Shown here: positions 6,303 through 36,683 of the stretch, one piece after another | Layout of the letters: each line of letters opens with the position of its first letter | How positions within the stretch are numbered: the first letter of the stretch is position 1 | Assembly: GCF_900155365.1 (NCBI RefSeq) | Contig: NZ_LT699739.1 | Location: 561,861 to 625,860, forward strand | Source: Collinsella bouchesdurhonensis | Lineage (GTDB): Bacteria > Actinomycetota > Coriobacteriia > Coriobacteriales > Coriobacteriaceae | DNA: 64,000 bases | Direction of reading: 5' to 3' | Notes under the pieces: model-generated | The model's database searches: none | Seen by the model: the letters and a program-made list of their open reading frames with translations, nothing else | Told to the model about the DNA's origin: nothing | Program-made: the position numbers and the translations under genes

Positions 6303-6445
6303 TCTTTATTTGAGCCATTCACGGCCTCCGCAGGCGCGGGCGACGCAACCCCCCCCCATAATTCTCCTGACAACATCCCGTATTTGAAAGCGCTATCCTC
6401 GCCCGTAACATGAATGCTCGGGCTGCAACAGAGGGGTTGTTTTTC

Positions 6446-26111: not shown

Positions 26112-28922
26112 CTACTTCACCGCATGACGGCGACGAGCAGCCTCGCCCGCAGCGATGGCAGCAGCGCCGGCGCCGGCAATGACGACGATGCCCTCAAGAG
26201 TCGCATCGCCCGTCTGCGGCAGCGTAGCGATTGCGGCGTGCGAGGTGACAGCAGCGCCGCTCGAAGCCTGCTGGGACGTAGCAGATGCGCCGCCCTTGCC
26301 CTCAGTCGGAGCCTCCGTCGAAGAGGTGCCGGATGCAGAGCCCGAGCCCGCGGCGGCACCAGAACCCGCAGCCTGCGAACACTTGTTGTAGCACTCGAGT
26401 GCAGCGTCGTAGTTTGCCTGCGCAGCATCGAGCTCATCTTTAGCTTGCTGTTCCGCGGACACAGCGCTGTCGTATGCAGCCTGTTTCGCCAACGTGTTCG
26501 CATGGGCGGCATCAAACGCCGCCTTGGCGGAGGCAAGCGGTTTCTCCTTCATCTGCAAGCCGATCTTAGCCTTGATGGCGTTCACCTCGGCCTGGGCAAC
26601 CTGTGCGCTCAGTTCGGCCAGCTCCTTGTTTGCGCGCTCGGCGTGCTGCTTCGCCGCATCCAGGTCGGTACGGGACTGGTCGACCTTCTGCTTTGCAGCC
26701 GCCTGCGCCGCACGAGCCTCCTCGAGCTTTTGCGCTGCCTGCTGGGCCGCCTGCTCGGCGTTCTCGGCAAGTTTAGAGGCGGACTCCGCCACCTTGCGAG
26801 CAGCCTCCATAACGGTATAGGCGGCAGCCTCGGCGTCCTTTGCAACCTGCAGCTGGACACCCGCTGCGTCCATGGCGAGCTTCGTTGCCTTCTCGGCAAC
26901 CTCAGCACCCACCATGAGCACACGGGCGGCATCCAGGTTCTTGGCAGCCACCGCAAGCTGGGCATTCACGATATCGAGCTCTGCCTTCGCCTCTTCGTAC
27001 TTTCGAGTAAGCCCGCCTGGAATCTTCACGCCAAGCACGGTCTTGCCGTCAATTTGCTCATTGAGCTTCTTGAGCTCGGCAGCATGCTGCGTGTCATAGG
27101 AAGAAACGGCGGAGTTTGCAGCATCGACGGCAGTTTGAGCTTTCTGTTGGGCAGCCGTTTTCTGATCGAGAGCCTGCTGGGCCTCGTTCTTTTTCGTCTC
27201 AGCCTGCCCAGTCTGCTGCTTCGCTTGCTCGAGAGCCTCCTCGGCATCGTCGAGCTTGCGCTTGTACTCAGCCAAATGGTCGATAGCGTCCAGCCGAGTG
27301 TTCACATTATCGAGCTCAGTCTGATCGGCACTGAGCGCCGCCTTCGCCGCATCGAGTTTATCGCTTGCAGCCTGTTTTGCCGCCTGTGCATCGGCCACTT
27401 CCTGTTTTGCCTGAGCCAAGGCCTCATCGAGCGGCGCCTTCGCGGCATTCGCGCTGTCGAGCGCGGCTTGGGCGGCGGCGACCTCCTCTGCCTTGGCATC
27501 CTGCTTCGCCTTCCAGCTGTTCAGGTCGGCTTCGGCAGAGTCAAGCGCCTTCTTGGCTTCGTTTTTCACCGATGGAAGGACCCATTTGCTGTCCTTGATG
27601 GCGTCGTAGCTGGACTTCGCGAAGTTATATCTAGCCTGAGAAGCGCTCACCTCGGAGTCAATATCCGACTTCTCCTCCTGCCTAGCGGAAAGAGCAGCCT
27701 GGGCATCCTCCACCGCTTGCGTCGGGGCGACCAGCTTGTCCTCAGCGGTTTTTTGAGCCGTCTGCGCCGTATCGAGCGCCGCATCAGCACTATCGAGCGC
27801 AGCTTGATCGTTTTCAACCTGTTGCTTTTCGTCCGCGACTTTGCTCTCAAGCTCGGCCTTGCGCGTGCGCAGCGCCTGAACCTGCGATGCATCGCCCTCT
27901 GCCTTTGAGGCTTCTTCATAGAGCGTACGGGCACCATCGGCTGTCTGCTGTTTTGCCTGTTGATTTGCCACCGCACCGTTATACGAACTCGTTGCGGCGT
28001 CGAGCGCGGCCTGCGCCGAGGCAACATCAGCCTTTGCCGCGTCGAGCGCCGTATTTGCCTCGTCGACCTTCTTCTCAAGGTCGGCGTGTCCCTGGTTAAT
28101 CTCGTCGCGGCGCGCGTTGGCGTCGTCCAAAGCTTTCTTGGCCTTGTCGTATTTGGCCTGTGCGTCCTTCTGACGATCGACCATGCCGTTGTACCAATTC
28201 TCGGCGTTTTCGAGGTTCTTCTTAGCGGTCTCGAGCGCACTTACCGCGGCATCGTGCTTCGTGCGTGCATCATCAAACTTGCCCTGCGCCTTTTTGCTCT
28301 GAGCGTTCGCCGTCTCCCAAAGTTTCTGGGCTGCATCGTAATTCTTCTGAGCCAGCTTGGCCGCCGCTTTAAGGCTGTCGACGGAATCATTTGAAAGGCC
28401 GGCGAGGGCCTGAAGGCGCTGCACCTCAAGCGTTGCCTTGGCGTGCTCGGCTTTAGCGGCTTCGAGCGCGGCGGTCTTCTTCACGACCGCGCGGTCGGCC
28501 TCCTTGACCTCATCGCTCTTCTCGGTCCACTCCCCCTCGACATCCTTGAGATGCTGCTGAGCGGCCTCGTTGGCAGCCGCAGCCTCGTCATAGGCAGCTT
28601 GGGCAGCCTCGAGATTCTTTGCAGCCTCCTTCTCTGCCGCCTGGGCGGACTCAAGATCGGTTGCGGCATTGCCGGTCGCATCGCGCTTGGCCTGATAATT
28701 CGCTTTCGCTTCATCGAGCTTGGCCTTGGCATCATCGAGATTCTTCCTGCAGGCAGAAAGCGACATGGTGCCACCCTGGCACTCCTCATAGCAGCCGGCG
28801 AGCACCAAGTCGTTATTGGTCTGCGCCATTGCGGCGGTGGAAAGCATGGGGGAAAGTGCAAATCCGGCCGTTATCACCGCGGCAACCGTCGGCTTGAAGT
28901 AATTCTTCTTGGAAGAGGCCAT
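26112..28922 (-). CDS. LPXTG-anchored Ala-rich coiled-coil surface protein
   Basis: A 936-residue secreted protein. A signal peptide (about 1-33, ending STAAMA) is followed by C44 and C48 (GCYEEC). Residues of about 55-840 form an almost continuous Ala/Lys/Glu/Asp-rich heptad region, best read as a long coiled coil with a short break near GVKIPGGLTRKYEEA. A second pair, C844 and C848 (CYNKC), ends the rod. A Gly/Ser/Ala-rich wall-spanning part follows, then LPQTG at 901, a hydrophobic helix and a basic tail. Sortase would anchor it to peptidoglycan. ATG 28922 follows AGGTG. Specific ligand unknown. Confidence 0.88.
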   Translation of the reverse strand: MASSKKNYFKPTVAAVITAGFALSPMLSTAAMAQTNNDLVLAGCYEECQGGTMSLSACRKNLDDAKAKLDEAKANYQAKRDATGNAATDLESAQAAEKEAAKNLEAAQAAYDEAAAANEAAQQHLKDVEGEWTEKSDEVKEADRAVVKKTAALEAAKAEHAKATLEVQRLQALAGLSNDSVDSLKAAAKLAQKNYDAAQKLWETANAQSKKAQGKFDDARTKHDAAVSALETAKKNLENAENWYNGMVDRQKDAQAKYDKAKKALDDANARRDEINQGHADLEKKVDEANTALDAAKADVASAQAALDAATSSYNGAVANQQAKQQTADGARTLYEEASKAEGDASQVQALRTRKAELESKVADEKQQVENDQAALDSADAALDTAQTAQKTAEDKLVAPTQAVEDAQAALSARQEEKSDIDSEVSASQARYNFAKSSYDAIKDSKWVLPSVKNEAKKALDSAEADLNSWKAKQDAKAEEVAAAQAALDSANAAKAPLDEALAQAKQEVADAQAAKQAASDKLDAAKAALSADQTELDNVNTRLDAIDHLAEYKRKLDDAEEALEQAKQQTGQAETKKNEAQQALDQKTAAQQKAQTAVDAANSAVSSYDTQHAAELKKLNEQIDGKTVLGVKIPGGLTRKYEEAKAELDIVNAQLAVAAKNLDAARVLMVGAEVAEKATKLAMDAAGVQLQVAKDAEAAAYTVMEAARKVAESASKLAENAEQAAQQAAQKLEEARAAQAAAKQKVDQSRTDLDAAKQHAERANKELAELSAQVAQAEVNAIKAKIGLQMKEKPLASAKAAFDAAHANTLAKQAAYDSAVSAEQQAKDELDAAQANYDAALECYNKCSQAAGSGAAAGSGSASGTSSTEAPTEGKGGASATSQQASSGAAVTSHAAIATLPQTGDATLEGIVVIAGAGAAAIAAGEAARRRHAVK

Positions 28923-29143
28923 GATGCACCTTTTTCTCCGCTGCACTGCCGCCGCTGAAGCGACACGTGTCCATTAAATTCATTGCGAAAGAATACCTCT
29001 CAAGCTTTTCTTCAACAATGGATAAGTAGACCACATATGTAGAGAAACGTACAATTGATGCATAATCGACAAATAATGTTTTATCGAAAGCAGAGTGTCG
29101 AGGAATCTTCCGAGAACATGCCTGCCCTCAGCAAAGGTTCGAA

Positions 29144-34598: not shown

Positions 34599-34733
34599 TG
34601 CGTTGAAGTGGTGTGCGCATCGATCATCAATCTTCAGTCGCTTCACTCTGCAGCGATCGCAAAAACAAAGAGCCCGCCCTTGGGTTGAAGGCAGGCTCAA
34701 AACGCAGGGATTCTAGTCGTGCGAATCTATAGC

Positions 34734-36414
34734 TTAGCTGCGGCGGCAATTAAGATGTACTCCGGCGGCGCAGATGGCGGAGCCGAGAGCGAGGGCCGCT
34801 ACGGTAGCGGCAAGGGCGCTGTCGCCTGTCTTGGGGAGGTTGCCCTTCTTGTCCGTTTTAACCGGTTTCTTCGTATCCGCAGGCTTCGTGGGCTCCTCGG
34901 GCTTTTGCTCGGGCTTTTGCTCAGGGGCGGCAACCGTGTAGGTAACCGTCGGAACCGGGAAATCGCTTGCCGTGCCCTTGTCACCGTTGCCGTCAACGGG
35001 GTACAGGGTTGCACTCTCGTTGACCTTGAGGCTATGGGTGCCGGCCTCGGTGGGCTTATTCACCAATACCTCGCTGTACGTAAGGACAACCGGTTTAGCG
35101 GGCACTGCGGCCTCATTGAGTGTGAAGACGAGCTTCTCGTTCTCCCCTGCCGTGTACTTGAGGGTGAAACGATAGGTGCCGTCCGCACGCTTGCCAAAGC
35201 CATACGTGGTCTCGTCAATCTTTTCGGGCGCCAGGTCCTCGCCCGCAACATTCAGGCTGATCTTACTGGCATCGTTCACAAAGTCAAAGTTGTTGCCAAT
35301 AAAATCCTCGACGGTCGAGCCGGCGGCGATCTTGTCGATGAGCTTGGCCTTGAGCTTATTGAAGTCAGTATCGAGCTTGCTCTCGTTGGATTTCCTGGTG
35401 AGATACTGCAGGAAGACCTGGCCATCGAAGTCAGCAGCGTTCTTGTAATAGACGTTCATGTCGTAGCCGGCATTGACCATCGACTGGAAGGTGTCATCGG
35501 TACTCCAAAAGGCAACATCGATGTTGCAGGGAGCGGTCACATCAACAGGAATGGGATTTCGAGCCTCGCGCTTGTATTCATAATCGTACTGAGCCCAATT
35601 TCTATCCGAGTTATCGTACTGGGCACGATAATACGCAAGATACTCGCCGAGCTTTTTAGGACTCGTCATGGCCTGCGAGAAGATGAAGTTCGATCCATCG
35701 GAGAATTTCTTCCAAGCATTATCAGTATTATACTCGCGAAGTTGATACTCCCAGATGCCGCCTTCTTTATCTGCACCGTTGACGATGCCAAACGACCTCG
35801 AATACGGCTTGGTATAGTCACCATTCTTGCAGTAAAGGTACGTGGCACCGTCGCTAATGAGGATCACGTGCTTGTTTTCGGCCTTAACGGCAGCATCAGC
35901 ATCGAGCATGCTCTTGGCAGCAAGAAGGCCGGCATCCATGTTGGTGCCCGAGCTCAAGCTCGAATTCATCGCCGTCAGAATGTTATCGTAACCTGTAACG
36001 ACATCAGTCAACGGCTGCTGAATATTGCCCACCTTGTTAAAGAGGACAACGCCAACCTTGATGTCCAAGCCGTCGGTCTGAGCCTTTGTCTTAACCTCTT
36101 CGAGGAAGGACTTGGCCTGGTTATAGATGTCCTTCTGCGCAGAGGCGCCCGACTTATCAAGAACGAACACAACATCCGCAGGCTCGGCTTCGCGTTTCCC
36201 CGGGAACGAGAGCGTAACTTTCGTCTCCAGATTCTCGTCGAGCTCGGTAGCCATTTTTTGATTCTGCTCCAGCGCCGTTGTCTGGCCAGATGCGGCAGTA
36301 TCAGTAGCAAACGCGGGTGCTACCGGCACAGACATGGCAATCGCCAGGAGCGCACCCCCCCCCCAGCACAAAGGCGCGGGATAAACATCGCTTTACCACA
36401 TTCACTGTTTTCAT
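34734..36414 (-). CDS. LPXTG von Willebrand A surface protein, out of frame at a poly-G tract
   Basis: The message starts at ATG 36414 (AGAGGGA upstream) with a signal peptide, but a run of ten G (36355-36364) shifts the frame, giving a stop after 37 residues. With nine G the frame would join L-GGG-ALLAIAMSVPVAPAFA to the long frame, giving about 559 residues. That frame holds a von Willebrand A domain (VVFVLDKSGASA, GTNMDAGL, ILISDGA), where the MIDAS third position is Ala. Beta-rich repeats, a Pro/Lys-rich spacer (PEQKPEQKPEEP) and LPKTG with a membrane anchor follow. Phase variation or a base-call error could explain the shift. Confidence 0.82.
36355..36364 (-). repeat. Poly-G tract of ten in a signal-peptide coding region
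   Basis: Ten C on the plus strand, hence ten G on the coding strand. It lies in the hydrophobic core of the signal peptide, where length changes of one base switch the reading frame. Confidence 0.95.
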
Positions 36415-36655: not shown

Positions 36656-36683
36656 GGCCCGCATGGAAACGTCCATGCGGGCC
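36656..36683 (-). terminator. Terminator of the opp operon
   Basis: GGCCCGCATGGA and TCCATGCGGGCC form a 12-base stem with a four-base loop, and TTTTT follows on the minus strand. Confidence 0.93.

Follow-up and report, generated by a model that had tools for sequence, protein, structure and literature searches.

A ten-G tract in a signal peptide as a probable slippage switch of a surface adhesin gene in Collinsella bouchesdurhonensis

Inspection of a stretch of Collinsella bouchesdurhonensis DNA, 64 kb long and hereafter called the window, revealed a run of ten G (36355..36364, minus strand) that is very probably a simple-sequence contingency locus, i.e. an ON/OFF slippage switch, of a surface adhesin. 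The run, the putative slippage site, falls at codon 17, directly 5' of the hydrophobic core of a signal peptide. Slipped-strand mispairing at replication would add or drop a G in the run, and the resulting length would decide whether the signal peptide is read in frame with a sortase-anchored, pilus-tip-like von Willebrand A (vWA) adhesin. At an ON length the protein would be exported and anchored; at ten G only a fragment of 37 aa would be made, which is the OFF state. We infer that slippage takes place in C. bouchesdurhonensis itself and is reversible, that the protein functions as an adhesin, and that host or phage exerts selection on the locus.

The ATG of the gene (36414-36412, minus strand) is preceded by the Shine-Dalgarno-like sequence AGGAAGAGGG (36428-36419). 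Across the tract, the coding DNA reads ...TTTGTGCT, ten G, TGCGCTCC. Direct translation of the ten-G form from this ATG gives MKTVNVVKRCLSRAFVLGGGCAPGDCHVCAGSTRVCY, 37 residues ended by a TGA at 36303-36301 (open reading frame 36301..36414, minus strand). Removal of one G gives MKTVNVVKRCLSRAFVLGGGALLAIAMSVPVAPAFA, fused in frame to a body of 525 aa. The tract shifts the frame within the region that codes for this signal peptide (36306..36414, minus strand; recognised with a signal-peptide heuristic of our own) and so splits it; when joined at nine G, the peptide is a textbook Sec signal with the end APAFA. The reading frame of the body (34734..36311, minus strand, 525 aa plus stop) is intact, with no stop or frameshift in its 525 codons, and the homopolymer at the signal peptide, which leaves peptide and body one base out of register in the assembly, is the only lesion. 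The original prediction had described ten G within the signal peptide of an LPXTG vWA protein, a translation from ATG 36414 that halts at 37 residues with ten G, a perfect signal peptide linked to the full protein with nine, and a window that would then hold the OFF form. The anatomy was borne out: the tract is at the place described, the body frame is open, and the assembled frame yields the 37-aa fragment only. Close to the tract, the only in-frame starts are TTG 36371 and one ATG located 3' of the tract. Neither has a Shine-Dalgarno sequence or produces a normal signal peptide; the TTG was rejected as the true start for want of a Shine-Dalgarno sequence and of a charged n-region.

The predicted protein combines a vWA domain (35841..36176, minus strand; PF00092, 1.7e-10; PF13519, 3.4e-10), a GBS104-like Ig domain of tip pilins (34944..35318, minus strand; PF21426, 1.4e-6) and, in the translation, an LPKTG sorting motif (34824..34838, minus strand) followed by a hydrophobic stretch and an RRS tail. 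All three elements of a vWA tip adhesin of the GBS104/RrgA type, namely the vWA domain, the GBS104-like Ig domain and the sortase motif, are present. Its MIDAS motif is DKSGA(S) and not the canonical DxSxS, the fifth position being Ala; D52, S54, T123 and D154 are invariant in the family alignment. A structure predicted with moderate confidence (pLDDT 62.7) had its best structural matches among the pilus tip adhesins Mfa5, SpaC, GBS104 and RrgA, and a PDB search with the protein sequence gave no match. Taken together, the Pfam domains, the LPKTG motif and the moderate-quality model suggest an adhesin-like protein.

A terminator directly after the stop codon (34670..34698, minus strand, an 11-pair stem then a T-run) indicates that the vWA gene is monocistronic. 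On the upstream side, a second one (36656..36683, minus strand, a 12-pair stem then a T-run) closes an oligopeptide-ABC operon and sets it apart from the gene. A simple consensus scan recognised no promoter 5' of the gene. Neither a pilus cluster nor a dedicated sortase adjoins it between its flanking terminators, and the genome's only sortase-family match lies elsewhere, on contig C14. The window also encodes a second LPXTG surface protein (26112-28946, minus strand), which has a long coiled coil and the motif LPQTG and is about 6 kb distant from the vWA gene.

The nearest named relative is Collinsella aerofaciens, a member of the same genus (77% identity). Orthologues from Ellagibacter isourolithinifaciens and an Eggerthella metagenome-assembled genome (MAG) share 71-74% identity, and more distant members of the family are spread across the Coriobacteriales. 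Taken over C. aerofaciens, Eggerthella and Ellagibacter, the body shows 72-77% conservation and contains no stops. Pairwise dN was about 0.17-0.20 against a dS of about 1 or more, near saturation (dN/dS about 0.12-0.13), and this pattern of substitutions indicates that the protein body is under purifying selection. As in a contingency locus, the tract is placed such that a change in its length would toggle an intact downstream frame, one that is open and constrained. The gene is patchy: at E <= 1e-20, 5 of 45 Collinsella genomes gave a match. No relative of it turned up in collections of plasmids and viruses.

Within this family, tracts recur in relatives at differing places. The orthologue of E. 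isourolithinifaciens DSM 104140 has an independent tract, a run of nine C that sits at another signal-peptide codon, and is likewise assembled out of frame. A Coriobacteriales family member (L105/L204) carries nine G directly 3' of its signal peptide, in frame, and another candidate (L234), whose mature start resembles the vWA family by eye, is out of frame, with nine G located 5' of the signal peptide. Since the tracts occupy differing leader positions within one family, selection for a switch is favoured over a shared accident. One further family member (L104) was left uncounted as a tract case, its in-frame stop being due to a point nonsense change. In yet another locus (L092, 384-402), runs of ten and eight C separated by a single T lie some 60-80 bases 5' of a vWA-family start codon, a possible promoter-spacing switch. 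Among the points that speak against a switch, no tract interrupts the signal peptides of the closest full-length orthologues, which are of the ordinary kind in both C. aerofaciens (genome G017) and the Eggerthella MAG, and no promoter was recognised.

Leader tracts that differ between orthologues were also found in other genes, all in comparisons between species with one genome per species. For an LPXTG peptidase, three Collinsella species have near-identical leaders with the tract at the same place of the signal peptide: nine G, ON, in genome G023 (L277), ten G, OFF, in G024 (L262), and another out-of-frame form in G013 (L278). Similarly, a secreted protein has nine G, ON, in G003 and ten G, OFF, in G042, the two being 73% identical, and a second secreted protein, also with the same leader in both genomes, has nine G, ON, in G366 and ten G, OFF, in G051. 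Flp-type pilin leaders have nine, ten or eleven G in six Collinsella species (G017, G014, G038, G032, G037, G027), where ten G are in frame and several of the others out of frame. Such Flp-type (Tad) pilin loci with a leader tract of nine to eleven G are L132/L138, L240, L241, L243, L244 and L253; it is possible that the Tad pili of several Collinsella are phase-variable.

These observations bear on a first alternative, a recent pseudogene, in which a chance and practically irreversible frameshift has hit an adhesin gene that is not needed. The assembled frame is indeed broken and the gene is patchy, and in this strain the tract may have become fixed in a gene that died not long ago. Nevertheless, the only lesion falls within a long signal-peptide homopolymer, the 525 codons being otherwise clean, and a similar lesion in the independent Ellagibacter tract, together with the ON/OFF pairs in other genes, would need to be coincidental. 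We consider this explanation very unlikely.

The run stands out from its surroundings. The numbers of G/C runs of lengths 4 to 10 in the window are 225, 58, 2, 0, 0, 1 and 1, so that the ten-G tract is the sole G10/C10, against 0.05 expected from dinucleotide shuffles. Near the tract, GGG makes up 8% of the Gly codons, and its consecutive GGG codons are unusual. Pattern searches, which made up the census of the genome itself, retrieved only four G/C runs of at least nine in its 1.88 Mb. The ten-G run is an outlier, above background. Three other runs were noted. In the window, nine G at 6349-6357 (minus strand) start within an ATG that has a Shine-Dalgarno-like sequence 5' of it; with only short frames there and a terminator-like hairpin beyond, the site may be what is left of a leader. 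Elsewhere in the genome, a C5 DNA methyltransferase gene of 520 codons (C15:196614, L004 ~1501) has nine G near codon 446, in frame, and eight G lie about 150-200 bases 5' of a secreted surface protein gene (C14:251143, L077 ~1501), where they are possibly promoter-associated.

A survey of most runs of at least nine G/C in ten genomes (eight Collinsella, Ellagibacter and G285), with those of the C. bouchesdurhonensis genome added, asked how many lie at leader peptides, according to an automatically scored heuristic of our own (start codon, Shine-Dalgarno sequence, hydrophobic leader). It placed 13 of 86 runs at leaders, of which two are orthologous to each other and three belong to the vWA family, some of the genomes having been picked for holding a vWA homologue. 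Among control positions, the counts were 23 of 764 for local controls, which are random positions in the same loci as the 86 runs (p = 1.6e-5), and 36 of 1037 for window controls (p = 3.4e-5), so that long G/C runs are over-represented at leaders. Runs of exactly six gave 2 of 31, too few to discriminate as a control. In 397 Coriobacteriales genomes, a Shine-Dalgarno-ATG-tract pattern had a match in 95, versus 46 (counted by hand) for the reversed pattern, a modest excess that includes artefact-like poly-G contig ends and was used for examples, not as proof. Among the assemblies of G006, G027, G029, G070, G073 and G090, some contain G9 windows by the hundred, which suggests sequencing artefacts at contig ends and calls for caution in tract surveys.

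An error of base calling or assembly in the run, the real gene being in frame with a tract that may exist at another length, is a second alternative, to which we give slightly less credence than to a pseudogene. Homopolymers are the most frequent site of such errors, assemblers collapse clonal mixtures, and some relatives contain artefact-like poly-G (e.g. G006 and G029, with their hundreds of G9 windows). In contrast, the C. bouchesdurhonensis assembly has only the four runs of at least nine, and its other long coding run, in the DNA methyltransferase gene, is in frame; even if the length were wrong, a long leader tract is real and is repeated in relatives. Least probable is slippage in transcription or translation giving a constant low amount of full protein without genetic switching: G runs of about ten are known to make polymerases slip, but this leaves the DNA-level differences in length and state between orthologues unexplained, and it is compatible with genetic switching rather than exclusive of it; transcriptional slippage may add leakiness to the switch.

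The slippage switch is favoured over a pseudogene or a base-call error because it alone explains the recurrence beyond a single locus. Length switching, as originally proposed, is supported by the Ellagibacter run of nine C, by the tracts of distant family members and by the Collinsella leader tracts that differ in frame state. Beyond this gene, it is likely that a whole group of G/C-tract contingency loci, as yet undescribed, exists in the Coriobacteriales (Collinsella, Ellagibacter and relatives). Situated at signal peptides and at the leaders of pilins, these loci would switch LPXTG adhesins, anchored peptidases and Flp/Tad pilins, and the vWA gene would be one of them. Collinsella is a common genus of the human gut. 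If the tracts switch, clonal populations would be mixtures of cells with different surfaces, and adhesion, immune recognition and phage sensitivity would be affected. The presence of a gene in a metagenome would also change its meaning, since an assembly captures one state only.

For Coriobacteriia, the literature searched describes variation by other means only, and in Eggerthella: prophage-borne recombinases and diversity-generating retroelements (PMC8778435) and large inversions (PMC13174815). For slippage-driven phase variation in Collinsella or Coriobacteriales, we found no paper in the open-access literature, a scope that leaves novelty unproven.

Among the closest known systems are the sortase-dependent pili of Bifidobacterium breve UCC2003, where tracts of ten and eleven G lie between a Sec-signal ORF and an LPXTG ORF in the pilus loci bbr_0113 and bbr_1889; their length is heterogeneous in the population, is set by replication slippage and controls the pili (PMC9187656). 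Both cases involve a gut actinobacterium, a G-tract between a short Sec-signal ORF and a long LPXTG ORF, and an assembly that is out of frame. They differ in that B. breve has a cluster of pilin plus sortase, in which slippage was measured, whereas here a single gene has no adjacent sortase and slippage is deduced. The bifidobacterial comparison made in the original prediction fits as to mechanism, but the vWA gene has no pilus cluster or adjoining sortase, and is not a switched pilin placed first in a cluster with its dedicated sortase. In Neisseria, G/C homopolymers of at least nine form the class treated as phase-variable, a threshold that the ten-G tract passes, and pilC, with 9-20 G, is an example (PMC5953494). 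There too, a pilus-associated protein has a poly-G/C run of at least nine within its coding frame and is turned ON or OFF by slippage; the protein family and the phylum are different, and strain-level variation is documented in Neisseria and putative for the Collinsella gene. The Gram-positive vWA tip adhesins GBS104, RrgA and SpaC, and also Mfa5 of Porphyromonas, resemble the vWA protein in the vWA domain, the GBS104-like Ig domain and the LPXTG anchor, and are the top matches of its model. From these adhesins it differs by the lack of a pilus operon and of a PDB sequence match, and by the MIDAS sequence DKSGA. The class of mechanism is already known from bifidobacterial pili and Neisseria pilC, and the Collinsella locus is very probably a new member of it.
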